From contig JAQTME010000007.1 in NCBI GenBank assembly GCA_028714535.1, forward strand, positions 1 to 60,665: a DNA stretch of 60,665 nt. The letters run 5' to 3'. Position numbers and translations under genes: made by a program. This document shows, piece after piece, positions 24,282 through 60,665 of the stretch. Below the pieces are notes generated by a model. That model worked only from the letters and a program-made list of their open reading frames with translations, ran no database searches and was not told where the DNA came from. The stretch comes from Candidatus Iainarchaeum sp. GTDB lineage: Archaea > Micrarchaeota > Micrarchaeia > Anstonellales > Bilamarchaeaceae. Position 1 is the first letter of the stretch, and each line of letters opens with the position of its first letter.

Positions 24282-25850
24282 ATGAAACTTTCCTACATGC
24301 TCTCCAAGGAGATAGCGCGCAAGATGATTCTTGTGCATCCGCCTGAGCCACGCAAGGAACTGCTCCTGTCCCAGCCTTCCGAGGGCGTCTACATAGGCAA
24401 GACGCGCTTCCTCAGGACGCCGGTCTTCTGGGACCCGTCCAAGCTCATCAACCCGCACCTGGCCATCATCGGCATAACCGGGTCGGGCAAGTCCTACACG
24501 GTCAAGACCTTCCTCACCCGCGCGTCGCTCATCTGGAACACGAACGCCATAATCCTGGACTGGGTGGGCGAGTACGAGAAATGGGTGAAGCAGGCGGGCG
24601 GGCGCGTCATAAACCTCGCCAAGGAGCGCCTGAACATACTGGACCTGGTCGGCCTCCCCAAGAGGAGCAGGATAAAGCAGATAATCTCGGCATTGGAAAT
24701 CCTGGTCGACCTCAAGAGCTACCCGAACGAGCGCGACGAGATAGAGGAGGCGCTCGAAATAGTATACGACGCCGACAGGAGCAGCAAGAAGCCCGGGATG
24801 GAGGAGGTCGTGCGGGCGCTTGAAAAAAAGAAAAAGGGCGGGAAGCTCAGGCGCTCCGATGCCGTGGCCGAGATCAGGCATCTCACCAGGAGCGACGGCA
24901 AGAAGCCCACGCTCGTGGACGTCGTCAGGCAATTGGAGAAGACCGGCAAGAAGAAGGCGGCGCGCCTCCTGAAGCGCTTCACGGTCGAAGGCACGGACTT
25001 CTTCGCCGGTTCGTCTACGCTCGACATAAAGAAACTGACAAGCAGCGGCCTGGTGTGCATAGACCTGCACGGCCTGCCGTCAGAGGAGATGCGGAGCCTC
25101 GCAGGCCTCACGATACTGCAGTACATCAAGGAGCTCATGCGCGCCGAGGGCATGAAGGAGGACAACCGGGAGGTCCGCCTGTTCGTCGTGCTGGACGAAG
25201 CATGGAAGATTGCCCAGGACGAGCGCAGCGACGTCATAGCCATAGTCCGCGAGGGCAGGAAATACAACTTCTCGCTCGTCATCGCGACCCAGAACCCGAC
25301 CGACATGCACAAGACAATATTCAGCAACATCGGCACCGTCTTCGTCCTGAGGCTCATCCTGAAGGAGTTCCGCGACTACGTGAGGAACTCCATAGGGTAT
25401 TCGACCTTCATAGACAACGAGATATCCAGGTTCGGCGTCGGCGACGCTGCGGTGAACATGATTTTCGCAGAGCGGCAGTCAAAGGTCATGACGTTCCTAA
25501 TGGACAAGATAGACGGCGAGGAGCCGCTCCTCAAATACACGATACGGGGTGGAGACATGAACATAGAGGTAGAACGCGAGCAATTCGTCCGTATGCTCTA
25601 CGAGCTCGGCCTCAACGAGGGCCAGGTCAGCCTGCTCAAGGCCGAGTTCGAGAAGGGCGACGGGGTGCTGGACGGCGAGCAGCTGGTCGCGGTCCTGGAG
25701 AAGTTCGGCTATGCGAAGCCGTCGGTGATATCCTTCCTCAGGCAGCTGGGGATAGACGACAAGAACCTCATCAAGGTCTTCTCGCTGGTCAAGATGCGGA
25801 AGGCGACAAAAGGCGTTGTGAACGTCGTTCTGGATGATGGACATGACTGA
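24282..25850 (+). CDS. VirB4/HerA-type secretion or DNA-translocation ATPase
   Basis: The 522-residue protein starts with a short strand region (GVYIGKTRFLRTPVFWDP), then Walker A GITGSGKSYT near residue 66 and AIILDWVGEYEKWV. A helical insertion occupies about 130-240. The Walker B region is LFVVLDEAWKIAQDERS near 305, followed by IVREGRKYNFSLVIATQNPTDM, the motif of VirB4/TraG/HerA hexamers with the catalytic Gln. The last 130 residues are a helical tail. VirB4 proteins normally carry a 200-residue N-terminal domain, which is missing here; the protein encoded at 18397 could supply it. These ATPases power secretion, conjugation or DNA pumping at the membrane. Companions are an overlapping coiled-coil gene and a 60-residue gene. 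HerA for DNA end resection is the main alternative, but no NurA gene is present. Confidence 0.82.
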   Translation: MKLSYMLSKEIARKMILVHPPEPRKELLLSQPSEGVYIGKTRFLRTPVFWDPSKLINPHLAIIGITGSGKSYTVKTFLTRASLIWNTNAIILDWVGEYEKWVKQAGGRVINLAKERLNILDLVGLPKRSRIKQIISALEILVDLKSYPNERDEIEEALEIVYDADRSSKKPGMEEVVRALEKKKKGGKLRRSDAVAEIRHLTRSDGKKPTLVDVVRQLEKTGKKKAARLLKRFTVEGTDFFAGSSTLDIKKLTSSGLVCIDLHGLPSEEMRSLAGLTILQYIKELMRAEGMKEDNREVRLFVVLDEAWKIAQDERSDVIAIVREGRKYNFSLVIATQNPTDMHKTIFSNIGTVFVLRLILKEFRDYVRNSIGYSTFIDNEISRFGVGDAAVNMIFAERQSKVMTFLMDKIDGEEPLLKYTIRGGDMNIEVEREQFVRMLYELGLNEGQVSLLKAEFEKGDGVLDGEQLVAVLEKFGYAKPSVISFLRQLGIDDKNLIKVFSLVKMRKATKGVVNVVLDDGHD

Positions 25851-26547
25851 AGAGAAGATTGTTGTAGCCGCGGCGCAGCAGAAACCGCTCAAGGCCCTCG
25901 CGGCGCTCCTGGGAGGGCTCGGTTTCACGAAGATATCGTATTCCAACAAGACGCTCACGGTCGAGAAGATGAAGGGCCAGGACATCAAGGGGAAGCCATA
26001 TCTCGACTACCGCGTGGAGTTCAAGGCAGCGTCGGTGGAGCTGTCATACACCATACCGCCGAACAGGAGCAGGGTCGCACGGCTCCTTGAGCTGCTGCCC
26101 ACGTTCCTGAACATCCTCCAGGTGGCCGAGGACTATTACACGGTGAAGCCGTCCAGCATCTACGCGCAGATAAACCTCGTCCTCGGGGAGACGTCCAAGA
26201 TAATCGACCGCGATGCAGTGGAGTTCTCCACCCAGCTCACCGACACGCAGGCGCGGCACGCCGACCTGAACGCGAAATACGACGACCTGGTGCGCTCAAC
26301 AGAGGCGAACACGCGCATACTGCTCGAGTGCGAGCAGAAGAAGGACGAACTCGAGAAGAAGCTGGCAAGGCTGAGCGGCATGAGCGACGACATGCTCAAG
26401 GAGGCGCTCTACGCATGGATACGGTTGCACAACGGCTTCATCGACGTGAAGGAGTTCTCCAAGGCCAACGCTGTCGCGATAATGCGCGCAGAGGAGGGTC
26501 TCAACCTGCTCATACAGGAGGGCTACATACGGAGGCGGTTCGATTGA
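25843..26547 (+). CDS. Coiled-coil and winged-helix-like protein coupled to the ATPase
   Basis: The 234-residue protein (237 from ATG 25834) overlaps the ATPase stop by eight bases, so the two are translationally coupled. The N-terminal 130 residues are alpha/beta with strands such as KISYSNKTLTVEKM and YRVEFKAASVELSYTI. The middle is a coiled coil (HADLNAKYDDLVRS, then LLECEQKKDELEKKLARL). The end resembles a small winged-helix domain (LYAWIRLHNGFIDVKEFSKAN, EEGLNLLIQEGYIRRRFD). No catalytic motif is seen. It may be an adaptor of the ATPase. The family is not recognised. Confidence 0.65.
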   Translation: MTEEKIVVAAAQQKPLKALAALLGGLGFTKISYSNKTLTVEKMKGQDIKGKPYLDYRVEFKAASVELSYTIPPNRSRVARLLELLPTFLNILQVAEDYYTVKPSSIYAQINLVLGETSKIIDRDAVEFSTQLTDTQARHADLNAKYDDLVRSTEANTRILLECEQKKDELEKKLARLSGMSDDMLKEALYAWIRLHNGFIDVKEFSKANAVAIMRAEEGLNLLIQEGYIRRRFD

Positions 26548-26726
26548 AGAAACGGAGCGCCAAGGCCAGCCAGCCCGCAGAGAAGAAGCCAGAAGCCCCC
26601 ACCAGGACCGTATTCAGCTTCGAGCTGCTCAAGACATACCCTGAGGCCCGCTTCTTCATGATAAAGAAGCCCCTCAAGGGCTCCATGAAAGATACAGTCT
26701 TCGAACTTCTTGGCAATAAGCGGTGA
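26544..26726 (+). CDS. Small basic protein, 60 residues
   Basis: The TTG start at 26544 overlaps the previous stop, with GGAGGCGG eight bases before it. The N-terminal 22 residues are Lys, Ala and Pro rich and probably disordered. The rest (VFSFELLKTYPEARFFMIKK, then GSMKDTVFELLGNKR) could form one helix and a short strand. It sits between the ATPase-coupled gene and purD, four bases before the purD start. Too short to name; translation is supported by the start context and tight operon packing. Confidence 0.55.
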   Translation: MKKRSAKASQPAEKKPEAPTRTVFSFELLKTYPEARFFMIKKPLKGSMKDTVFELLGNKR

Positions 26727-26730
26727 GGAC

Positions 26731-28032
26731 ATGAAAGTACTGCTGGTAGGCAACGGCGCACGCGAGCACATAATAGCGGAAAAGCTCGCCGCCCACGCAG
26801 AACTCTATGCGGTGATGTCCAAAAGGAACCCTGCGATAGCGCGCCTGTGCAGGGAGAGCTGGCTGTGCGACATAGAGGACGCGGCGGCCGTGGCCGCGGC
26901 CATAAGGGGCAGGGGTTTCGACCTGGGCTTCGCAAGCCCTGACGCCACGCTCGCCGCGGGGGTGAGCGACGTGATGGAGAAGGCCGGCATGAAGGTCGCG
27001 TCGCCGTCAAAGGCCGCGTCAAGGATAGAATGGGACAAGTCGTTCATGCGCTCGCTGCTCTCAAGGCACCGCATAAAAGGCCAGCCAAGGCACGAAGTGG
27101 TGAAAACCGAATCTGATGCGCTCCGCGTCATAAGGGACTATGGCACGGTGGCAGTGAAGCCGCTCGGCCTCACCGGCGGCAAGGGGGTCAGGGTCAGCGG
27201 CGACCATTTCACGAAAATAGAGGACAAGGTGGCCTATGCCAAGTCCCTCATACTGAAGGACGGCAGCGTGCTCATAGAGGAGAAGCTCGTAGGCGAGGAA
27301 TTCACGCTCCAGGCGTTCTGCGACGGCTCAGCGATCGCCGCCATGCCCCCTGTGCAGGACCACAAGAGGGCGTTTGAACAGGATATCGGCCCAAATACGG
27401 GCGGCATGGGCAGCTATTCTTCAGGCGCCCTCCTCCCGTTCATGGAGGCACGCGACCTCGAGGAGGGAAAAGAAATCCTCCAGGGCGTCGTCAGGGCGAT
27501 GAAGGCCGAGGGGGCGCCGTTCCGCGGCGTCCTGTACGGCCAGTTCATGGCGACCGCAGACGGGCTCAAGGTCATAGAGTTCAACGCGAGGTTCGGAGAC
27601 CCTGAGGCGATGAACGTGCTTGCGCTCCTCGACGGTTCCTTGCCGGACATCCTCCTTTCCATGGCGGACGGAAAGCTCAAAGCGCCGCGCTTTTCAAGCG
27701 ACTGCACGGTGGTGAAATATCTGGTGCCGCAGGGCTACCCTGACAAGCCACTGAAGGATGCTGAGATTTCGGTCGATGCAGGCGCGGCAAAATCCATCGG
27801 CGCGTCGGTCTATTACGCATCTGTTTACGAGAAGGAAGGCAGGGTCTACACCTCGTCATCCCGCGCCATCGGGGTGCTCGGAAGGGCAAAGGCGCTCGAT
27901 GAGGCCGAGGCGATCGCGGAAAAGGCCTGCGGCTGCGTGAAAGGGCCGGTATGGCACCGCAGCGACATAGGCACGGCCGCCCTGGTGGGCAAGAGGATAG
28001 CGCACATGCGCTCCCTGCGAGGCAAACCATGA
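26731..28032 (+). CDS. purD: Phosphoribosylamine--glycine ligase
   Basis: The 433-residue protein starts VLLVGNGAREHIIAEKLA, the normal PurD N-terminus, with GGTGAGGAC before the ATG. ATP-grasp features follow: VAVKPLGLTGGKGVRV near residue 140, VLIEEKLVGEEFTLQAFCDG near 185, then QDHKRAFEQDIGPNTGGMGSYS and VIEFNARFGDPEAMNVL near 280, which hold the metal and phosphate ligands. It joins 5-phosphoribosylamine and glycine using ATP in purine synthesis. No other purine gene is in this window. It is translationally coupled (ATGA) to a secreted transglutaminase-like gene, an unusual pairing. Confidence 0.95.
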   Translation: MKVLLVGNGAREHIIAEKLAAHAELYAVMSKRNPAIARLCRESWLCDIEDAAAVAAAIRGRGFDLGFASPDATLAAGVSDVMEKAGMKVASPSKAASRIEWDKSFMRSLLSRHRIKGQPRHEVVKTESDALRVIRDYGTVAVKPLGLTGGKGVRVSGDHFTKIEDKVAYAKSLILKDGSVLIEEKLVGEEFTLQAFCDGSAIAAMPPVQDHKRAFEQDIGPNTGGMGSYSSGALLPFMEARDLEEGKEILQGVVRAMKAEGAPFRGVLYGQFMATADGLKVIEFNARFGDPEAMNVLALLDGSLPDILLSMADGKLKAPRFSSDCTVVKYLVPQGYPDKPLKDAEISVDAGAAKSIGASVYYASVYEKEGRVYTSSSRAIGVLGRAKALDEAEAIAEKACGCVKGPVWHRSDIGTAALVGKRIAHMRSLRGKP

Positions 28033-45030: not shown

Positions 45031-47484
45031 CTATGTTCTCCTCTTCTTGCTGGTTTTTAGCGTGAATGCTGCCGCTGCGGCCATGTCGACGACGCCCTCA
45101 AGCGCCCTGATAGTTTCGTGGTCGAAGAAGCCGGGTTTTTCCGAATATACGTTCAGCGCCCCGACCGCCCTGCCCTCCTTCCGCAGCGGGAACGCCGCTG
45201 ACGACCGGTAGCCGCGCTTCGCGCCCTCAGCGCGCCACATCTTCATCCGCGGGTCCGTTGCCCAGTCGTCGATGATTACCGCCATGTTCTCGCGTATGGC
45301 CGTTCCTGTCGGCCCCTGCCCTTCGGGAACGTTGTCCGTGGAAATCTTTATGTTGTCAAGGTAGCCCCTTTCCATGCCCGCATGGGCGAGCGGCGTCACC
45401 TTCCTGGTCCTGGCGTCCGCGAGCCCGATCCATGCCATCCTGAAGCCCCCCTTGTCAACGAGTATGCTGCACATTTTCCCGAAAATCTCCCCGGTGCCCA
45501 GGCCTTTGCGCCGCGCATCTGTGGCCATGTGCCCTATCTCCTCGGTCATCGCATAGAGCCTGCCCAGGGTGCCGAGCCGCTCTTCTGTAAACCTGCGCCT
45601 GGTTATGTCCTCGCCCGAGCTCAGCGTCCCCAGTCTCCTGCCGTCATCGCGCAGGATTGTGTTGTGCCATGCTATGAGCTTCTCCTCGCCGTTTTTGGCC
45701 AGGACCTCGTTCTCATAGTACCCGACTTCCTTTATCTCGCCGGCCATGAGCTTCCCGAATGTCTCCTCGGTGCGCTTCCTTGCCTTCTTAGGGATGAATT
45801 TCTCGAACCAGTTCTTCCCTATTATCTCCGGTTCCTTGTATCCCAGCACCTCGCAGCCCTTCCTGTTTATGAGCGTCACCTTCTGGTCAGCCCCGATGGC
45901 GACCAGTATGACATCGGCGATATCCAGGTACTTGTTCGCCAGGTTCCTCTCCCCCTCGAGCTCCTTCTCTGCCTTGTCCGCCTTTGCAAGCGCCTCGCGG
46001 AGCGCCTTGTCCTCGCTCTCCCGCCGGGTGATGTCCCTCAGGGTGATTATGGTCCCTATGTGCATGCCTGCCGCGTCCTTCAGCCTGTTGATGTTGACTT
46101 CGCCAGTGAACGTGGCGCCGTCCTTCCGCTGCATCGTGAGCTTGACCCCGTTCATCTCCCCTTGGGCGTCAAGCACCTTGGTGATTGCCCGCCTCGCCTC
46201 GTCCCGCGCATCTGGCGGCAGGAGGCCGTAGACGTCAGTCCCCAACAAATCGGACGGCTTGCCTGCGCCGAACACTCCAAGGGTGCGGGCAGATATCTCG
46301 TTTATGATGCCTGCCGGGTCGGTGACTATTACCGCATCTGGCGATGTCTTTATGAGCGCCCTGTACCTCTGCTCCGCCTTGGTCCGCTCTTCGAGCGCCT
46401 CGCGCAGCGCCTTGCTCTCGATTTTCAGCTGCGGGGCCGTCTCCTTCATGGCCAGCTTGAGGCTGACAAGCGTCCTGTCGAACGCCCGCGCCAGCTTGCC
46501 TATCTCGTCATTGGATTCCTTCATCTTCGGGTCGAGGTCGCTGCGCATGTCGCCCTTGCTGATTGCAGACACCACGCTTGTGAGCTCGTCTATGGGGGCG
46601 AACACCCTCCGTATCGCCAGGATTGCGGCTGCTAACGCGAGCAGCAGCAGGGCCAAGGTGACCAACAGGACTGCACTGTTTATCTGCCGGATCGGGGCGA
46701 GCGCTTCGCTGCTGTCTATCTTGGATATCAGGCACATGCCGTTGTCCTGCAGCCAGTAATATCTTTCGATGACCAGGTCGCCATGATAATCAGGATAGGT
46801 CGCGCTGCCGTTATTCCCATCCAGGCATTCACTCACGGCCTGGGTGTGGAGCGGGTTGGTGTCGTTTCTCGTTTTTTTGAGGCCTGTGATGGGCACGCCA
46901 TAGCTGTCAGCCAGGAACACCTCTCCAGTGTTGCCCATGCCGGCAGACTCGAGCATCAGCGCACTGGTCGTTTTCATGGATAGCCTGGCCCCAAGCACAG
47001 CAATTGTGCTCCCGCCCGCATCCTTTAGGGGGGTCGTGATGAAATATGCCGCCGGCCTGCCGTATTCAGGCGGGTAGAACCGGCTTACGAATGACGTTCC
47101 TGCCAGGCCGTTCGCGAAATACGCCTCCTTGGACACGTCAAGGCCCTCTTCGCCTGGGTCGGTGGATGCCACAACCGTGCCGTCGAGGCCCATTACGAAC
47201 AGGGAATCAAAGTCCGGCTGGGCCGCCAGCTCCTGGCCCAGCGCAGCCTTCATGCTGCCGCTGTAACCGGCAATGCGGCCTGCCACGCGCTCCAAATGGC
47301 CCATCTCATCGGCCTTATAGTACTCAAACTGTGCTATCTTCACCAGGCCTATGCTGGCGAGCTGCGCATCTGTCCTCTCGGCTATTGCTTCTCTTGCGTT
47401 TTCTGCATAGAACCAGCCGAGGGCCCCTATGGCTACTGCCATGGTGATTATGAAAAACAGCGCCAGCCGCGTGCTTATCTTCAT
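45031..47484 (-). CDS. Membrane sensor: dCache-HAMP-PAS-PAS-GAF without kinase
   Basis: The 817-residue protein has a membrane helix at about 8-28, then an external dCache-like domain (30-270) with LFVMGLDGTVVASTDPGEEGLDVS and VFLADSYGVPIT. A second helix lies at 275-295. HAMP (RRVFAPIDELTSVVSAISKGDMRSDL, in parts) follows, then PAS 1 near 370-490 (LIKTSPDAVIVTDPAGII) and PAS 2 near 520-640 (YLDIADVILVAIGADQKVTLIN) with a coiled coil between. GAF sits at the end (near 650-810, DNVPEGQGPTGTAIRENMAV, GALNVYS). There is no histidine kinase, GGDEF or methyl-accepting domain after it, so the signal must pass by protein contact. The start overlaps the KaiC-like stop by ATGA and the degenerate KaiC gene follows by two bases, pointing to those as partners. 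Confidence 0.9.
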   Translation of the reverse strand: MKISTRLALFFIITMAVAIGALGWFYAENAREAIAERTDAQLASIGLVKIAQFEYYKADEMGHLERVAGRIAGYSGSMKAALGQELAAQPDFDSLFVMGLDGTVVASTDPGEEGLDVSKEAYFANGLAGTSFVSRFYPPEYGRPAAYFITTPLKDAGGSTIAVLGARLSMKTTSALMLESAGMGNTGEVFLADSYGVPITGLKKTRNDTNPLHTQAVSECLDGNNGSATYPDYHGDLVIERYYWLQDNGMCLISKIDSSEALAPIRQINSAVLLVTLALLLLALAAAILAIRRVFAPIDELTSVVSAISKGDMRSDLDPKMKESNDEIGKLARAFDRTLVSLKLAMKETAPQLKIESKALREALEERTKAEQRYRALIKTSPDAVIVTDPAGIINEISARTLGVFGAGKPSDLLGTDVYGLLPPDARDEARRAITKVLDAQGEMNGVKLTMQRKDGATFTGEVNINRLKDAAGMHIGTIITLRDITRRESEDKALREALAKADKAEKELEGERNLANKYLDIADVILVAIGADQKVTLINRKGCEVLGYKEPEIIGKNWFEKFIPKKARKRTEETFGKLMAGEIKEVGYYENEVLAKNGEEKLIAWHNTILRDDGRRLGTLSSGEDITRRRFTEERLGTLGRLYAMTEEIGHMATDARRKGLGTGEIFGKMCSILVDKGGFRMAWIGLADARTRKVTPLAHAGMERGYLDNIKISTDNVPEGQGPTGTAIRENMAVIIDDWATDPRMKMWRAEGAKRGYRSSAAFPLRKEGRAVGALNVYSEKPGFFDHETIRALEGVVDMAAAAAFTLKTSKKRRT

Positions 47485-49220
47485 GGCCGCCCGCCCCCGA
47501 GCAGGCCGCCAAGCACTCCCTTCTTCTTTTTCGCAAGCTTCGGCGGCAGGCCTCCCTCGCCCTGAAGTATGGCTGATACACTGTCCTTGAACGGCCCCCC
47601 GTCCTCTGCCCTGAGTATGTGCCCCCTCACCAGCGAATCGATGTAGGCATCGATGCCCTCTTCCGAGACCCCGCTTTCAGAAAGCTCCCCGAACGCCTGC
47701 GCGCCCATGGGCCCCAGGAACCGCTTGAACTCGGCCTCGAGCTTTTCCTCCACGGTCTGTGAGACCTTCCTGCCCACGCCTGTTATGACCGCCTCGTAGC
47801 CCGCGAGGGAAGATCCTATGACTATGCCATCGCCGGTTATGTCGTATCTCCTGAGCTCCTTGCTGTGCGTGCTTCCCCTTTCCTTGACCACGTTGAGGAC
47901 CGGCTGCAGTTCGCCTTCCATCTCCACCTGCCTTAGCGTTATGAGGTTGTCCACGGTGGTGGACAGGTGGCGGTCCCCCCTCCCCCTGCCGTCCGCGTCA
48001 GGGTGCACCGAGGAGGTGAACATGGTTGTGACTCCCCTGGCCTTCATGTAGTTGTTGAGCCTTTTGGCGAAGTTCACGTAGCTGTCCTCAGGGAACGCGC
48101 TGGCGATGGCGCTGAGCGGGTCTATGGCGCATCTCTTGATGCCCTTCCTTTCCACTATGGCCTGTATCTCTGCCAGGTGCTCGTCCATGAACTTCTCCGT
48201 AGGATAGACACACCTGAGCGTGAGCAGCCCTTCCTTCTCGTAGGTTCCGAAGTCCCAACCGCAGCTTTTGGCGTTCCTCAACACCTGCTCCCTGCTCTCC
48301 TCGAAGCTCCCATAGAGGCATGGCACCCCCTGCTTCAGGCCATCGCTGAGGAACTGCAGCGCCAGCATGCTCTTGCCAGTGCCTGCGGTCCCGGCCAGTA
48401 TGGTGGACGAGGCGCTGAAAAGACCGCCGCCAAGCATCTGGTCCAGCACCGCGTTGCCCGTGGATACCCTCTCCATGGTGGACGGGTATCCCAGCGGCAT
48501 CTTCACCTTCGGGAAGACGGTTATGCCCCCGGGGGTTATCCTGAAATACCTGTCCTCGCTGCTATACCCCCTTCCCCTGACCTTTATTATCTGCAGTATC
48601 CTCTGGAACTCGTCGCCCACGCGCACCTGGTCCAGCTTTATGATGGCATCCGATATGAACTCCTCGACGCCGTAAACAGAATACCTCTCCTTGGTATCGA
48701 CAATCTCGCTGGTGAGCACTGTCGTGCAGCCCAGCGAGGTCAGTATCCTGCCCAGCTCGAATATCAGCTTCCTGACCTCTGCCTTGTCCTTCAGGTTGTA
48801 GGCTATGGCGGTGATGGAGTCGATGCACACGCGCTTGATGTTCGCCGACTTGACCTGGTCCTCTACGAATTCCATGACCTTCTCGCCGTAGAACTGGTCG
48901 CCGTACATCACGCGGATGTCTATTATCTTCAGACGCTGGTCCTCTATGGCTTTCCTGTCATAGAAATCCATGGCCTCCAGGTTCTTGACTATCTTGAACA
49001 GCGGCTCGGTCAGCGATATGTACATGCAGTTCTCGCCGCGCTTCACGCCGTCGAACAGCCACTGGAGCGAAAGCATGGTCTTCCCGCTGCCTGAGCTGCC
49101 TGCAAGCAGCACCACAGAGCCCCTCGGGAAGCCGCCCTGGAGCGCGCTGTCCAGTTCTGCAATGCCGGTCGGACAGTTCTCTTCCATGTCCGCGGCCTGC
49201 ACAGATTTTTTCACTGCCAT
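47481..49220 (-). CDS. KaiC-like double-domain ATPase
   Basis: The 579-residue protein has two RecA-like domains. Domain 1 (about 15-245): GIAELDSALQGGFPRGS, Walker A GSSGSGKT, the catalytic Glu in ISLTEP, Walker B VCIDSITAIAYN. Domain 2 (about 250-500): GNAVLDQMLGGGL, Walker A GTAGTGKS, SFEESREQVL with the two Glu, Walker B CAIDPLSAIASA. A helical tail of about 80 residues ends with KKKKGVLGGLLGGG. Both P-loops and catalytic Glu residues are intact. Archaeal KaiC-like proteins form hexamers that integrate signals; some act as timers or secretion and motility regulators. The minus-strand TATA (TTTATAAT, 49250-49258) places the transcript start near 49230, so this gene leads the operon. Confidence 0.92.
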   Translation of the reverse strand: MAVKKSVQAADMEENCPTGIAELDSALQGGFPRGSVVLLAGSSGSGKTMLSLQWLFDGVKRGENCMYISLTEPLFKIVKNLEAMDFYDRKAIEDQRLKIIDIRVMYGDQFYGEKVMEFVEDQVKSANIKRVCIDSITAIAYNLKDKAEVRKLIFELGRILTSLGCTTVLTSEIVDTKERYSVYGVEEFISDAIIKLDQVRVGDEFQRILQIIKVRGRGYSSEDRYFRITPGGITVFPKVKMPLGYPSTMERVSTGNAVLDQMLGGGLFSASSTILAGTAGTGKSMLALQFLSDGLKQGVPCLYGSFEESREQVLRNAKSCGWDFGTYEKEGLLTLRCVYPTEKFMDEHLAEIQAIVERKGIKRCAIDPLSAIASAFPEDSYVNFAKRLNNYMKARGVTTMFTSSVHPDADGRGRGDRHLSTTVDNLITLRQVEMEGELQPVLNVVKERGSTHSKELRRYDITGDGIVIGSSLAGYEAVITGVGRKVSQTVEEKLEAEFKRFLGPMGAQAFGELSESGVSEEGIDAYIDSLVRGHILRAEDGGPFKDSVSAILQGEGGLPPKLAKKKKGVLGGLLGGGRP

Positions 49221-53500: not shown

Positions 53501-56500
53501 ATGCCAGCAATAGCTGAAACGCGATGGGCGATTTACTTAGCCGCATTGCTATTCCTCGCCTCCTTCGCCTTGGCAACCCTCTCCATCACCTTCATCCCCC
53601 CGACACCCGACAATGCCAGCACCATCATCGTGCCGAACGCCACCATAAACGTGTCCGTCGGGGAGAACGCGACTTCCTGCCTGCTTGCGATATCAGGCGG
53701 TACAGGGGGTGCGCTTTGGAGCAACATCAAGCACCTCGGCATCTCAGGGGGCGCGTTTGACTACAACGCATCGCTCGGCGTGAACAACTATTCGTCGTTC
53801 ACCATGAACCAGCTCCTTCCCCTCGATGCAAGTTCCTACCATGCCTGCTACCTCCGCTCCAACGGCAATTCCACCTGCTACGGTGCCAATTGGAATAGCC
53901 AGTCCACGCCATACACCGGCGGCGATGCAATCGCGCTTGCCGCAGGCGACGCACATACCTGCTACCTCCGCTCCAACGGCAACTCCTTCTGCTACGGCTC
54001 CAACAGCTCAGGCCGTTCCACCGGCTACTCAGGCGGCAATGCCATCGCAGTCGCCGCAGGCAGTTACCACACCTGCTACCTCCTCAGCACCGGCAACTCC
54101 CTCTGCTACGGTTACAACTACTCCGGCTCGACCAACGCCTACTCCGGCGGCAACGCTATCGCAGTCTCCGCAGGCAATTACCATACCTGCTACCTCCTCA
54201 GCAGCGGCAACTCCACCTGCTACGGCTACTATTATTACGCCAACTACGGCCAGGACACGGCCTACTCCGGCGGCGATGCAATCGCAGTGAGCGCAGGCTA
54301 CGTGCACACCTGCTACCTCCTCAGCAGCGGCAACTCGTTCTGCTACGGCAACAACGGCTCAGGCCGGTCCACCGGCTACTCAGGCGGCGACGCAATCGCC
54401 CTCTCCGCAGGCAGCTACCACACCTGCTACCTCCTCAGCAGCGGTAACTCCTTCTGCTACGGCTCCAACAGCAGCGGCGAGTCCACCGGCTACTCAGGCG
54501 GCGACGCAATCGGCGTGTCAGCAGGCAACTACTATACCTGCTACCTTGTCTCAAACGGCAGTTCGGCCTGCCTCGGCCAGCCATCCTACTACTATGACTA
54601 TGGGCAGGCAGACCCCTACACCGGAACCGACCTTAGGATCCCATTCGCGGCATCCCCGGGCAGGGTGATGGAGGTGCATAACAACGATACCAGCACCACT
54701 GCGAATTATTCGCTCGCAGACCTGGTCGAGGGCAATTATTCCTACAACGTGACCTGCGCCAACTCGACGCCCTCGTCAAACACGAGCGGAAACCAGGCCT
54801 TTACTGTCGAGCTCAAACTTCTGTTCTCCAACGTCGTCAACCAGACCCAGCCGGACGAAACAAGCATCATGATAAACTGGACCACCGACAAGAGCTCCAA
54901 CTCCACTGCCAGCTACTCGACGGTCGACGGCCCTGTCACGCTTGCCACCGACGCGTCATATTCCACATCCCACAGCATCACCCTCACCGGCCTCACCCAG
55001 AATGTCACCTATTATTATAATCTCACGTCCTGCAACCCAGCCGGGCTGTGCAACACGAGCGGTCCTTACCGTGCCATAGCCGACATCACGCCGCCGTCCA
55101 TAGAGTTAGTAGACCCCACGCCCCCTGATGTTGCGATTGTGCGGGATCAGCCATTCATCAACTCCACAGTGAACGAGAACGTGAGCGAGTGCGTGCTTTT
55201 CCTGGGCGACCCGGACCAGACGTGGGCAAACATAAGGCACCTGGGCGTGATGGGCGGCAGGTTCGACTACGGCGCATCCATGGGCGTGAACAACTATTCC
55301 TCGTTGACCATGCAGCACAGGCTGCCCATAGCAGCATATGAACATACCTGCTACCTCCTTGCAAATGGCAGCTCAACGTGCTACGGCAACAATGATTATG
55401 GCGAGGCAGACCCATACACCGGCGGCGACGCCATCGCAGTCGCGGCAGAGGAGTATCACACCTGCTACCTCCGCTCCAACGGCAACTCCGCCTGCCACGG
55501 CGCTAACTGGGGTGGCCAGTCCACTTCCTACACCGGCGGCGATGCCATCGCGGTTGCCGTAGGGCAGTACCACACCTGCTACCTCCTCAGCACCGGCAAC
55601 TCCCTCTGCTACGGCGATGACAGCTATGGCCAGTCCGACCCATACACCGGCGGCGACGCCATCGCGGTTGCCGCAGGACGATACCGCACCTGCTACCTCC
55701 TCAGCACCGGCAACTCCGCCTGCTACGGCAACAACGATTACGGCCAGTCAACCAGCTACACCGGCGGCAATGCCATCGCCCTGTCTGTAAGCGGCTCCCA
55801 CACGTGCTACCTTCTCAGCACCGGCAATTCCTTCTGCTACGGCCTCAACAACAACGGTCAGGCGATAGCCTACACCGGCGGCGACGCCATCGCACTCTCC
55901 GCAAGCAACGACCATACCTGCTACCTCCTCAGCAACGGCACCTCGACCTGCTACGGGACCAACACATACGGGGAATCCACTGATTACACCGGCGGGGATG
56001 CTATAGGCGTCGCGTCCGGCGGTGCGCACACCTGTTACCTCCTCAGCAGCGGCAATTCCGTCTGCTACGGGTACAATGACGATGGCAGGTCCACGAACTA
56101 CACCGGCGGCGACCTGAAAATCCCATTCGCATTCCCTTCATATGCCATGGAAACGAGCAACTTAGATGCTTCCACCACAGCCAACTACACGTTCGTTGGG
56201 ATGCCCGACGACAACTATTCCATCTATGCGGGCTGCCACGACCTTGCAGGCAACTGGAACGTTTCTGCCAACCGCTCGTTCATGCTGGAGACCCACGTCT
56301 CCATAAGCGGCGTCGTCAACAGGACCCAGCCTGACGAAACCAGTGCCATGATAAACTGGACCACTGACAAGAGCGCCAATTCCACTGTGAATTACGGCGA
56401 AACTCCGGCCTACGGGATGTCAGCCGGCGACGCTTCCTACTCTGCCTCGCACAGCATAACCCTCACGGGCCTCACACCAGGCACGCTCTACTATTACTCC

Positions 56501-59500
56501 GTGCGGTCGTGCACCCCCACCGGCCTGTGCAACGACAGCGAGCAGTACCAGTTCATAGCAGACGCCACCCCCCCGTCAATGAACTTCACAGACCCCACGC
56601 CTGCCGACGGCTCCGTGATAAGCTACCAGAACGCGGTCATCAACATCACAGTCAGCAAGAACGTGAGCCAGTGCCTGCTTTACCTGTACGACCCTGCGAA
56701 ACTATGGTCTAACCTCAGGCACCTCGGCCTGAACGGCGGCACGTATGACTACAACGCCTCGGCCGGCGTCAACAACTACTCATCGTTCAACATGCAGAAC
56801 CGGATGCCGCTTGGCACGGGCAGCCCACAGATGTGCTATCTCCTCAGCAACGGCAATTCGGCGTGCTACGGGAGCAATAACGAAGGGGAGCGCGTCAACC
56901 ATATAGGGCACAATGCCGTGGCCATTTCAGCAGCGATTCAACTAACCTGCTACCTCCTCAGCACCGGCAACTCGGTCTGCTACGGCGACAACGGCTCGGG
57001 CCAGGCCACTGCCTACACCGGCGGCGACGCCATCGCGCTTGCCGCAGGGTGGCACCACACCTGCTACCTCCTCAGCACCGGCAACTCCACCTGCTACGGT
57101 GACGATTCCTACGGACAGGCCACTGCCTACACCGGCGGCGATGCCATCGCGGTTGCAGTGGGCGAATACCACACCTGCTACCTCCTCAGCAGCGGCAACT
57201 CCTTCTGCTACGGCAACGACGACAACGGCCAGTCAACAAGCCATGCCGGCGGCGATGCCATAATGATTTCGGCAGGCAACGACTACACCTGCTACCTCCT
57301 CAGCACAGGCAACTCCACCTGCTACGGCAGCAACGCCGACAGCAGGGCCACCAATTACACCGGCGGCGATGCCATCGCGGTAAGCGCCCAGTTTACCCAC
57401 ACCTGCTATCTCCTCAGGAACGGCAACTCGAAATGCTACGGTACCAACAGCGACGGGGAATCCACTGATTACAGCGGCGGGGACGCAATAGGCGTCGGAT
57501 CCGGCGCGGCGCATACCTGCTACCTCCGTTCCAACGGCAACTCAATCTGCTATGGCTACAACTCCGACGGCCGGGCCAATCCCTACAACAACAGCGACCT
57601 GATGCTGCCTTTCGCGATGATAACATACCCGATGGCGGCTGACAATGCCGACGCCTCCACCACAGCCAACGCCACCCTCCCGGACCTCTCTGACGGTGAC
57701 TACCTGGCATACGCCAACTGCACTGATTACGTAGGCAACGTGAACGTTTCCGAGACCAGGGCGTTCACCCTGGCCATGAACCTCCTCATAACCGGCGTCG
57801 TCAACCGGAGCCAGCCCGGCGACACTTCTGCGCAGATAAACTGGACCACCAGCGCGCCGGCAAACTCCACGGTGAACTACGGGGAGACCCCCGGCCTGGG
57901 CACCCTCGTCGAAGACGGGTCATATTCCACCCACCACGTCATAAACCTGACCGGCCTCACCCCGCTGGCGCTTTATTACTATAATGTGACGTCGTGCACA
58001 GTCACCGATATATGCAGCACCACCGGCCCCTACCAGTTCATATCAGATGGGACCGCGCCGTCGATGAACTTCACAGACCCCACGCCTGCCGACGGCTCGA
58101 CGACGAGCACTTCCAGCGCCACCATTAACATGACCCTGAGCGAGAACGTCAGCTCGTGCCTCCTCGCTTTCAACAAGCAGGGCGCGCTATGGACCAATGT
58201 GAAGCACCTGAACCTCCTCTGGGGCGCATTCGACTATAACGCATCGATAGGCGCCAGCAACTACACCTCTTTCAGCATGCAGCACCGCCTGCCAATCGGC
58301 ATGGGCTCTTACCATACCTGCTACCTCCGCAGCAACGGCAATTCCTCATGCTACGGCAGTTCGGGATGGAACGAAAATACCCCGTATACGGCCGGCGACC
58401 TTGTCGAGATTTCAGGAGGGAACCAGTTCAACTGCTACCTCAATGCAGCCGGCAACTCCCTGTGCTACGGCGTCGGCTACAGTGGCCAGACCACCAGCTA
58501 CACCGGCGGCGATGCAGTCGCCCTTGCCGCAGGAGGCAGCCACACCTGCTATCTCCTCAACACCGGCAACTCCACATGCTACGGCGACAGCGGCAACGGC
58601 CGGACAACCAGCTACACCGGCGGCGATGCCATCGCAGTCACCGCAGGCGATTATCACACCTGCTATCTCCTCAGCAGCGGCAACTCCTTCTGCTATGGTT
58701 ACAACTACTCGGGCTCGACCACCGGCTATTCAGGCGGCGACGCCATCGCAGTCGCCGCAGGGGCGTACCACACCTGCTACCTCCTCAGCACAGGCAACTC
58801 CGTCTGCTACGGCTATAACAGCAGTGGCCAGACAACAGGCTACTCCGGCGGCAATGCCATCTCAGTCGTAGCAAGCTACTATCATACCTGCTACCTCCTC
58901 AGCACAGGCAACTCAGTTTGCTACGGCCAGAACAGCTACGGCGAAGCCGACCCCTACACCGGCGGCGACGCAATCGGCATGAAGACCTCTTCATATGTGA
59001 CCTGCTATGTCCTCTCAAACGGCAACTCGACATGCTACGGCAACGGCGACCCAGCCATCCCTTACACAGGAGGGGACCTGAAAATACCATTTAGTCCTGC
59101 CATCTACGAAATGGTCGTGGACAATGCAGACAGCTATACCACTGCCAACTATACCATATCGCCACTCGCAGAAGGCACATATGGCTTTTATGCGAACTGC
59201 ACTGACTTCGCAGGCAACTCGAACCTTTCCGAAACCCGCTCGTTCGACATGTCCCTGAGCATCACCATATCAAACGTCGCCAACAAGACCCAGCCGGGCG
59301 ACACTTCTGAGCAGATAAACTGGACCACCAGCGGCAGCGGCAACTCCACGGTGAACTACGGCGAGACGCCAGACCTGGGCAGCCTCATCACCGACGCTTC
59401 GTATTCCATCCACCACGTCATGAACCTCACCGGCCTCACCCCCGGCATGCATTACTACTATAACCTAAGCTCCTGCACCAGCACAGACATCTGCAATACG

Positions 59501-60665
59501 TCCGGCACATACCAGTTCATAGCGGATGCAACCCCCCCGTCCATCAACTTTACGGATCCAACCCCGGCAAACGCTTCGCTGGTCAATTACCAGAACGCGA
59601 TTATCAACGCCACGCTGAGCGAAAACGTCACCCAATGCGTGCTTTACATGTACGACCAGTCAAAAACGTGGTCAAACCTGAAGCACCTCGGGATTAACTG
59701 GGGCAGGCTCGACTACAATGCATCCGTCGGCGTCAACAATTACTCATCCATAACGATGCAGTACCTGTCGCCTGTTGTGGCGGGCAACTATCACACTTGT
59801 TACGTCCTTTCAAATGGCAACTCCGCCTGTTATGGGGCCAACTACTACGGCCAGTCCAACAACTACACCGGCGGCAACGCAGTTGCAGGGGCCGCGGGGG
59901 AGTACCACACATGCTACCTCCTCAGCAACGGCAACTCCACTTGCTACGGCTACAATGACTATGGTCAGCGCACCGCGTACACCGGCGGCAACGCCATCGC
60001 CGTGTCTGCAGCATACAGGCACACCTGCTACCTCCTCAGCACCGGCAACTCCGCCTGCTACGGCAACAACGGCTCAGGCCAGGCCACCGGCTATTCAGGC
60101 GGCGACGCCATAGGCTTGGCAGCTGGCAACTACCACACATGCTACCTCCTCAGCAACGGCAACTCCACCTGCTACGGCTATAATTACGCTGGCTCGAGAA
60201 ATAGTTATACAGGAGGTGACGCCATCGCAGTCGCCGCAGGAGAATACCACACCTGCTACCTCCTCAGCAACGGCAACTCCGCCTGCTACGGCGACAACGG
60301 CAACGGCCAGTCCATTGCCTACGCCGGCGGCAACGCCATCGCAGTCGCCGCAGAAGATGACCACACCTGCTACCTCCTCAGCAGCGGCAACTCCGTATGC
60401 TACGGCGCCAACTCCTCAGGCTCCGACATGCCATATTCCGGCGGCAACGCCATCTCAGTCTCAATAGGCGACTCGCACACCTGCTACCTCCTCAGCAACG
60501 GCAACTCCGCCTGCCACGGCTACAATGACGATGGCAGGTCCACCAACTACAGCACCGGCAACCTGAGGGCGCCGTTCGCTCCGCCATCTTACCAGATGGT
60601 CGTGAACAATTCAGGCAGCTATACGACCGCCAACCATACCCTGCCGGAACTGCCTGTCGGCTCGT
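53501..60665 (+). CDS. Giant secreted multi-propeller protein, 3' end outside the window
   Basis: The frame from ATG 53501 (GGGAG about seven bases before it) stays open for 2388 codons to the window edge, so the stop lies beyond. A signal peptide (WAIYLAALLFLASFALA) starts it. Then come five blocks of seven tandem units, each 38 residues and shaped H-T-C-Y-L-L-S-x-G-N-S-x-C-Y-G-x-N-x-x-G-x-S-x-x-Y-x-GG-D-A-I-A-V-A-A-G. This is the RCC1_2-type blade, with two cysteines nine residues apart. Blocks begin near residues 114, 615, 1110, 1605 and 2098. Between them lies a fibronectin III-like domain (QINWTTS ... ITLTGLTPG ... YYYN) and an Ig-like domain that seems to be split by the propeller. Sequons are very frequent. 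It is probably a long glycosylated cell-surface or secreted adhesin. There is no membrane anchor in the visible part. Confidence 0.9.
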   Translation, partial: MPAIAETRWAIYLAALLFLASFALATLSITFIPPTPDNASTIIVPNATINVSVGENATSCLLAISGGTGGALWSNIKHLGISGGAFDYNASLGVNNYSSFTMNQLLPLDASSYHACYLRSNGNSTCYGANWNSQSTPYTGGDAIALAAGDAHTCYLRSNGNSFCYGSNSSGRSTGYSGGNAIAVAAGSYHTCYLLSTGNSLCYGYNYSGSTNAYSGGNAIAVSAGNYHTCYLLSSGNSTCYGYYYYANYGQDTAYSGGDAIAVSAGYVHTCYLLSSGNSFCYGNNGSGRSTGYSGGDAIALSAGSYHTCYLLSSGNSFCYGSNSSGESTGYSGGDAIGVSAGNYYTCYLVSNGSSACLGQPSYYYDYGQADPYTGTDLRIPFAASPGRVMEVHNNDTSTTANYSLADLVEGNYSYNVTCANSTPSSNTSGNQAFTVELKLLFSNVVNQTQPDETSIMINWTTDKSSNSTASYSTVDGPVTLATDASYSTSHSITLTGLTQNVTYYYNLTSCNPAGLCNTSGPYRAIADITPPSIELVDPTPPDVAIVRDQPFINSTVNENVSECVLFLGDPDQTWANIRHLGVMGGRFDYGASMGVNNYSSLTMQHRLPIAAYEHTCYLLANGSSTCYGNNDYGEADPYTGGDAIAVAAEEYHTCYLRSNGNSACHGANWGGQSTSYTGGDAIAVAVGQYHTCYLLSTGNSLCYGDDSYGQSDPYTGGDAIAVAAGRYRTCYLLSTGNSACYGNNDYGQSTSYTGGNAIALSVSGSHTCYLLSTGNSFCYGLNNNGQAIAYTGGDAIALSASNDHTCYLLSNGTSTCYGTNTYGESTDYTGGDAIGVASGGAHTCYLLSSGNSVCYGYNDDGRSTNYTGGDLKIPFAFPSYAMETSNLDASTTANYTFVGMPDDNYSIYAGCHDLAGNWNVSANRSFMLETHVSISGVVNRTQPDETSAMINWTTDKSANSTVNYGETPAYGMSAGDASYSASHSITLTGLTPGTLYYYSVRSCTPTGLCNDSEQYQFIADATPPSMNFTDPTPADGSVISYQNAVINITVSKNVSQCLLYLYDPAKLWSNLRHLGLNGGTYDYNASAGVNNYSSFNMQNRMPLGTGSPQMCYLLSNGNSACYGSNNEGERVNHIGHNAVAISAAIQLTCYLLSTGNSVCYGDNGSGQATAYTGGDAIALAAGWHHTCYLLSTGNSTCYGDDSYGQATAYTGGDAIAVAVGEYHTCYLLSSGNSFCYGNDDNGQSTSHAGGDAIMISAGNDYTCYLLSTGNSTCYGSNADSRATNYTGGDAIAVSAQFTHTCYLLRNGNSKCYGTNSDGESTDYSGGDAIGVGSGAAHTCYLRSNGNSICYGYNSDGRANPYNNSDLMLPFAMITYPMAADNADASTTANATLPDLSDGDYLAYANCTDYVGNVNVSETRAFTLAMNLLITGVVNRSQPGDTSAQINWTTSAPANSTVNYGETPGLGTLVEDGSYSTHHVINLTGLTPLALYYYNVTSCTVTDICSTTGPYQFISDGTAPSMNFTDPTPADGSTTSTSSATINMTLSENVSSCLLAFNKQGALWTNVKHLNLLWGAFDYNASIGASNYTSFSMQHRLPIGMGSYHTCYLRSNGNSSCYGSSGWNENTPYTAGDLVEISGGNQFNCYLNAAGNSLCYGVGYSGQTTSYTGGDAVALAAGGSHTCYLLNTGNSTCYGDSGNGRTTSYTGGDAIAVTAGDYHTCYLLSSGNSFCYGYNYSGSTTGYSGGDAIAVAAGAYHTCYLLSTGNSVCYGYNSSGQTTGYSGGNAISVVASYYHTCYLLSTGNSVCYGQNSYGEADPYTGGDAIGMKTSSYVTCYVLSNGNSTCYGNGDPAIPYTGGDLKIPFSPAIYEMVVDNADSYTTANYTISPLAEGTYGFYANCTDFAGNSNLSETRSFDMSLSITISNVANKTQPGDTSEQINWTTSGSGNSTVNYGETPDLGSLITDASYSIHHVMNLTGLTPGMHYYYNLSSCTSTDICNTSGTYQFIADATPPSINFTDPTPANASLVNYQNAIINATLSENVTQCVLYMYDQSKTWSNLKHLGINWGRLDYNASVGVNNYSSITMQYLSPVVAGNYHTCYVLSNGNSACYGANYYGQSNNYTGGNAVAGAAGEYHTCYLLSNGNSTCYGYNDYGQRTAYTGGNAIAVSAAYRHTCYLLSTGNSACYGNNGSGQATGYSGGDAIGLAAGNYHTCYLLSNGNSTCYGYNYAGSRNSYTGGDAIAVAAGEYHTCYLLSNGNSACYGDNGNGQSIAYAGGNAIAVAAEDDHTCYLLSSGNSVCYGANSSGSDMPYSGGNAISVSIGDSHTCYLLSNGNSACHGYNDDGRSTNYSTGNLRAPFAPPSYQMVVNNSGSYTTANHTLPELPVGS
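53840..54650 (+). repeat. Propeller block 1: seven RCC1-like units
   Basis: Seven units begin every 114 bases, from 53840; the fourth carries a nine-base insertion (extra Tyr-rich residues YYYYANYGQ). The seventh starts at 54533 and its final strand is replaced by DLRIPF. Confidence 0.9.
54820..55090 (+). repeat. Fibronectin III-like spacer 1 (super-repeat element)
   Basis: NQTQPDETSIMINWTTD, SYSTSHSITLTGLTQ and VTYYYNLTSCNPAG give the FN3 pattern; related copies lie near 56310-56570, 57790-58050 and 59270-59530. Each is followed by an ITPPS/ATPPS start of an Ig-like half-domain. Confidence 0.75.
55343..56130 (+). repeat. Propeller block 2: seven RCC1-like units
   Basis: Unit 7 begins exactly 6 x 114 bases after unit 1 (56027), so there is no indel in the block. 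It ends with DLKIPF. Confidence 0.9.
56828..57612 (+). repeat. Propeller block 3: seven RCC1-like units
   Basis: Units run from 56828 to the seventh at 57512, an exact 114-base period. The first unit is the most divergent (QMCYLLS..., HIGHNAVAIS). The block ends with DLMLPF. Confidence 0.9.
58313..59094 (+). repeat. Propeller block 4: seven RCC1-like units
   Basis: Units run from 58313 to the seventh at 58997 with an exact 114-base period. The last unit is shortened in its middle before the DLKIPF end. Confidence 0.9.
59792..60580 (+). repeat. Propeller block 5: seven RCC1-like units
   Basis: Units run from 59792 to the seventh at 60476 with an exact 114-base period. The block ends with NLRAPF, and the following Ig-like half-domain is cut by the window edge. 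Confidence 0.9.

Follow-up and report, generated by a model that had tools for sequence, protein, structure and literature searches.

Seven-bladed RCC1-type propellers predicted to be nested in Ig-like domains in a giant archaeal protein

In plant CR4 the extracellular part has seven repeats, each about 39 residues long and bearing the signature C(X10)CWG (PMC4617170), against 38 residues and C-x9-C in the archaeal protein analysed here, and the CRINKLY4/ACR4 ectodomain (7a0j, 7a0k) resembles this protein in its seven short repeats with a Cys pair and its RCC1-like propeller. It differs in having one propeller, joined to TNFR-like, membrane and kinase parts, whereas the C-terminus of the archaeal protein lies beyond the contig. 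BLIP-II (1jtd, 3qhy, 9t9p) shares membership of the RCC1/BLIP-II group and the seven short blades, but consists of one free-standing domain, an inhibitor of (class A) beta-lactamase, and has no Ig array. Archaeal surface proteins that combine propellers with PKD/Ig domains, found in Methanosarcina, in ARMAN Mia14 and as giant nanohaloarchaeal proteins, have been proposed to act in cell-cell contact (PMC5498576, PMC10266531); unlike the present protein they use YVTN, Kelch or WD40/PQQ propellers, and Ig nesting is not described for them. For giant Ig-rich DPANN surface proteins with propellers, host binding has been proposed (PMC10266531), and the SPEARE-like giant DPANN proteins end in a C-terminal membrane segment and a VirB4/TraG-like ATPase, a part of the protein that here would fall past the contig end. 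The minor pilin PilX2 of Saccharibacteria, which are episymbionts, bears a surface-exposed seven-bladed RCC1 propeller (PMC12206443), but only one, and on a type IV pilin. Our literature search on RCC1 together with archaea, propellers and S-layers found no paper. The locus described here brings in an archaeal example whose plan is unusual: several propellers, each predicted to be nested in an Ig-like domain.

The gene lies at the end of the window, by which we mean the whole 60,665-nucleotide stretch of DNA analysed. Its open reading frame (53501..60664, on the + strand, as are all its parts given below) runs for 2388 codons without a stop and is open at the contig end; since the window is all of contig C7, ending at 60665, the gene is cut at its 3' end by the assembly. 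No continuation was found on any other contig of the same genome. The gene runs past the contig end, and the block total is at least five. The hydropathy maximum of the protein falls in an N-terminal hydrophobic segment, residues 10-30 (53528..53590), a putative signal peptide or membrane anchor.

The C-x9-C motif occurs 35 times in the protein, in five runs of seven that cover all 35 units. Of the 30 intervals within runs, 29 measure 38 residues (114 bases); the other, between units 4 and 5 of block 1, measures 41, three residues (9 bases) having been added there. This recount agrees with a preliminary description of the same DNA, which had reported 35 units of 38 residues in five sevens, with a constant 114-base period in four groups and one 9-base insertion in the fifth; block alignment adds two shifts in the length of the last unit that were absent from it, +4 residues in block 1 and -2 in block 4. 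Two Pfam models had been proposed there for checking the units. RCC1_2 (PF13540) does so in 29 separate stretches with an E-value of 3.1e-161, a match far beyond chance, whereas the classic RCC1 repeat of ~50 residues (PF00415) has no match in the protein at E <= 0.1. With tandem RCC1-type repeats, seven per domain, in all five blocks, the protein falls within the RCC1/BLIP-II superfamily. The blade hairpin HTCYLLxxGNSxCYG is nearly invariant among inner blades, and its C-x9-C pair probably forms a disulfide.

The five runs sit in five blocks of 492-499 residues each (the last one cut), which are 56-61% identical to block 2 and share one order of parts: an Ig-like N-terminal half, a conserved segment, seven RCC1_2 units, an Ig-like C-terminal half and an FN3 domain. 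The N-terminal Ig half of block 1 (53588..53704, placed by alignment to blocks 2-5 and by domain logic) adjoins the signal segment directly, and is followed by a propeller of seven units, one lengthened by 3 residues and the last by 4 (53825..54646; C-x9-C count, RCC1_2 and alignment), a C-terminal Ig half (54662..54811; alignment and Pfam comparison of the rejoined halves) and an FN3 domain (54812..55084; PF16656/fn3-like, by profile and alignment). Block 2 comprises an N-terminal Ig half (55085..55210; alignment and model strands 6-9, 24-29 and 33-39), seven units with an exact 38-residue period (55328..56128; modelled as a 7 x 3-strand ring), a C-terminal Ig half (56141..56290; model strands 352-401) and an FN3 domain (56291..56563; PF16656, residues 941-1018). 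The same parts are found in block 3 at 56564..56692 (block alignment), 56813..57613 (seven units by C-x9-C count, exact 38-residue period), 57626..57775 (Big_13, residues 1381-1423) and 57776..58051 (FN3, by profile and alignment), and in block 4 at 58052..58180 (a weak match to Big_5), 58298..59092 (seven units by C-x9-C count and alignment, exact 38-residue period with the last unit shorter by 2), 59105..59254 (Pfam comparison of the rejoined halves) and 59255..59527 (FN3, by profile and alignment). Block 5 has its N-terminal Ig half at 59528..59656 (block alignment), its seven units with an exact 38-residue period at 59777..60577 (C-x9-C count), and a C-terminal Ig half that is cut by the contig end (60590..60664; block alignment). 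The FN3 assignment comes from PF16656 (E 5e-26, 4 stretches) and from the fn3 model, at 25.5 bits against a cut-off of 25, while the Pfam match of the C-terminal Ig half is to the C-terminal part of Big_13; a Cys in this half could pair with a Cys in the N-terminal half. The conserved segment, LWSN-K-HLG..GG-FDYNAS-GVNNYSSFTMQ, occupies the 35-40 residues that separate an Ig strand from blade 1 (53705-53824 in the window, with counterparts in blocks 2-5); it is strongly conserved among the blocks, matches no Pfam family and is predicted with very low confidence.

When rejoined, the Ig halves of blocks 3 and 4 score 20-21 bits against a Pfam cut-off of 27 and those of blocks 1 and 2 give no match, whereas a plain Ig-like domain of the same genome reaches 30 bits against that cut-off. 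Because the rejoined halves stay below it, nesting was tested instead on uninterrupted relatives, with a query of 93 residues in which the two halves were joined and the propeller left out. Ten other genomes of the phylum, one of them of the same genus, hold uninterrupted Ig domains that are collinear with nearly all 93 residues (E 7e-10 to 5e-7); in one of them, G008, the domain reads DATPPFINFTAPTPLNNTVIYVDNAYINVTVTDN...LEWNGTNQTINNTSGTSWEINKTGLVPGVYTYRVFANDSSGNLNVSETRRL without an insert (DNA translated by eye). Such relatives indicate that every propeller has been inserted into a loop of an Ig-like host domain. The idea put forward earlier, a chain of at least five propellers, is borne out by the five seven-unit domains and has to be amended in that the propellers are not bare, each being nested in an Ig-like domain with FN3 between. 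In the architecture that we propose, one strand-to-strand loop of each Ig-like domain would be interrupted by a closed propeller, with an FN3 domain next. Closure of a propeller brings its first and last strands next to each other, so that the propeller would fit into an Ig loop as a bead on a string made of the Ig and FN3 domains. The Ig(propeller)-FN3 plan is predicted for block 2 from sequence together with structure prediction, and for the other four blocks by homology. A second large exported-looking protein of the same genome (contig C14, ~25550-27380) is a series of Ig-like repeats (Big_13/Big_7) of the kind into which the propellers appear to be inserted, here without interruption.

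Across 84,980 genomes, a scan with the profile yielded 16 loci. Seven C-x9-C units are found in a protein of Chloroflexi (L072, units of 37-38 residues) and in proteins of bacterium HR30 (L077) and Myxococcales (L078), both with units of 37 residues. A deltaproteobacterial protein (L074, 4934-6529) opens with a Cys-rich N-terminal region and continues with exactly 14 units of 38-39 residues (C-x10-C in one), probably two back-to-back propellers. All four resemble the archaeal protein in their RCC1_2 matches and C-x9-C blades, at about 32-39% identity, and differ from it in having one or two propellers, CWG for CYG, no Ig nesting and other fusion partners. The seven-unit bacterial proteins show that short blades with a Cys pair, seven to a domain, are a known design of bacteria, and the short C-x9-C blade loses the special status first given to it, as bacterial proteins carry 7 or 14 such units and plant CR4 is similar. 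RCC1_2 occurs in 3 of 301 genomes of the archaeon's phylum; the other two (G059, which is L082, and G076, which is L085; sequence identity checked) have classic blades of 50-51 residues, six and seven of them, and both match PF00415. In archaeal relatives of the same taxonomic order (L082:6003-8900, also L032 and L033), the RCC1 propeller is joined to Cys-rich repeats and to a hydrophobic N-terminus of pilin type (MMRGVTSTEYTILLAVVLVIVLAVAGALL); this fusion recalls the RCC1 pilin of Saccharibacteria, and a paralog with the same N-terminus adjoins it. A search of the 301 phylum genomes, same genus included, turned up no relative of the whole block, and the remaining matches there concern the FN3 part and the sequence after FN3; a single-sequence scan of genome contigs and a profile scan of viral contigs gave no match. 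The protein had been presented as an archaeal design not described before, which does not hold for the blade, known from bacteria and plants; for the nested array our searches gave no second example. What is new is the Ig(propeller)-FN3 array with its nesting, its homogenised blades and its occurrence in an archaeon.

From its N-terminal hydrophobic segment, its Cys and N-x-S/T sequon content (90 sequons against 47 in shuffles) and the company of Ig and FN3 domains, we infer that the protein is exported. The reading that we favour, with somewhat better than even confidence, is an exported surface protein of a small-genome archaeon, with at least five Ig(propeller)-FN3 blocks (~493 residues each), that would serve as a multivalent adhesin or binding array. 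At least five propeller faces would be available for ligands carried by a partner cell or a surface, with two variable loop stretches in each blade. The binding role is suggested by analogy with precedents, namely the DPANN surface proteins and the Saccharibacteria RCC1 pilin, which make adhesion plausible. If the protein is an adhesin, it hints at how small, possibly host-dependent archaea could hold their partners.

Less probable, though deserving serious weight, is a passive coat or sheath in which propellers and Ig/FN3 domains would act as rigid, glycosylated envelope spacers without a specific ligand. The sequon number, twice that of the shuffles, and the acidic composition (156 acidic versus 53 basic residues) speak for such a coat, as do the known S-layer proteins of archaea that combine propellers with PKD domains (Jing 2002, cited in PMC2447325, PMC5498576). 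No related block turned up elsewhere in the phylum genomes searched, however, which is a misfit for a core coat protein, and the variability of the blades is concentrated in loops: among inner blades it clusters at columns -4/-3, ahead of the first Cys, and at columns 13-21 behind it, both of them loops at strand ends. Diversifying selection on these loops was not found, dN/dS being 0.43-0.62 and never >1, so that they give no sign of an arms race, which counts against the adhesin reading. We regard as improbable a secreted enzyme blocker in the manner of BLIP-II, with propeller faces that would inhibit foreign hydrolases. BLIP-II (E 8e-31) is, after ACR4/CR4 (E 2e-37 and 3e-36), among the nearest solved structures of the propeller profile, and shares the short blades and seven repeats; yet it is one free domain, whereas here at least five are tethered in a giant protein, and the resemblance is confined to the blade frame.

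Closure was addressed by structure prediction of block 2. A first model, from an alignment of the five blocks only, had a mean pLDDT of 47.4 and approached RCC1-like rings at an rmsd of about 6-7 or more; it was left out as evidence for closure. A second model, for which six bacterial propellers of the same period were added to the alignment, reached a mean pLDDT of 75.5 and a pTM of 0.70, with pLDDT of about 80-94 in the propeller. Its propeller has 21 strands in 7 triplets, from 82-84/87-92/97-101 up to 306-311/315-320/325-329, and the Ig halves hold seven further strands at pLDDT of about 52-71, a low to moderate confidence. Foldseek superposed this model on UVR8 with an rmsd of 2.9 over 341 columns (TM 0.59-0.62) and on the CR4 ectodomain with 3.8-3.9; the other matches were RPGR, RCC1 and HERC domains, all of them RCC1-like propellers. 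Strand order and superposition on solved seven-bladed rings support block 2 as a closed ring of seven blades, and by homology the other blocks as well, in line with the RCC1-type fold that the preliminary description had, very probably correctly, proposed. An open solenoid, or a failure to close at seven, was looked for in the block-2 prediction and did not appear; an open solenoid would not fit closed rings at an rmsd of ~3. We consider it very unlikely that the units form an open solenoid or close incompletely, with seven merely inherited through block duplication. This explanation can appeal to the poor shallow model and to the clear descent of all blocks from one ancestral block, but the ring is well predicted once the bacterial rows are included, units number 7 or 14 in the related bacterial proteins, a domain inserted in an Ig loop must have its two ends next to each other, and inner blades have been exchanged with their number unchanged.

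The exchange of blades is recorded at synonymous sites. Fourfold-degenerate identity between blocks is 0.42-0.46 in the Ig parts and 0.52 in FN3, where random codons of the same usage give 0.44; the flanks are thus near synonymous saturation and the block duplications old. For blades 2-6 the corresponding identity is 0.66-0.69, at the same or different position and in the same or different block, against expectations of 0.42-0.43 (codon usage of the flanks or of other genes) and 0.54 (the blades' own usage), whereas blade 1, at 0.46, is not homogenised. Codon bias as the sole cause was rejected, as shuffling of synonymous codons over the blade columns gave 0.559 +/- 0.013 versus 0.668 observed. 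A positional orthology linking the inner blades of different blocks was likewise rejected, same-position amino acid identity (69.9%) equalling that between different positions (69.4%). Homogenised synonymous sites and position-independent identity indicate that inner blades exchange sequence within and between propellers, which may proceed by conversion or unequal crossover.

The five sevens cannot be counted as independent of one another, the blocks being of common descent, and a count of seven kept through blade turnover is the better argument for selection. The earlier suggestion that selection fixes the number at seven gains indirect support in this way, from concerted evolution of the inner blades with their number unchanged. 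Selection for ring closure may keep the count, and conversion without crossover would also preserve it. Blade number does vary among other repetitive propellers: related chitinases of a single group have 3, 4, 6 and 9 (PMC9218822). A more specific proposal, that the 35 blades exchange inner sequence yet always number seven because only a closed ring fits the Ig loop, seems to us evenly balanced between right and wrong. Blades that recombine while their count stays constant make it possible to test what holds the blade number of propellers fixed.

An assembly artefact, in which repeat units were collapsed or multiplied by the assembler, is the least likely explanation of all: the contig does terminate inside the gene, within a repetitive region, but the gene has no exact repeat >=60 nt, which makes short-read collapse of the array unlikely, its frame is open over the entire length, and 23-52% of bases differ between blocks, depending on domain and pair.

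Elsewhere in the window, at 45031-49220 on the - strand, a sensor-like protein with PAS/GAF/Cache/HAMP domains, in which no kinase domain was matched, adjoins a two-domain KaiC-like ATPase; the two are a possible archaeal signalling pair.
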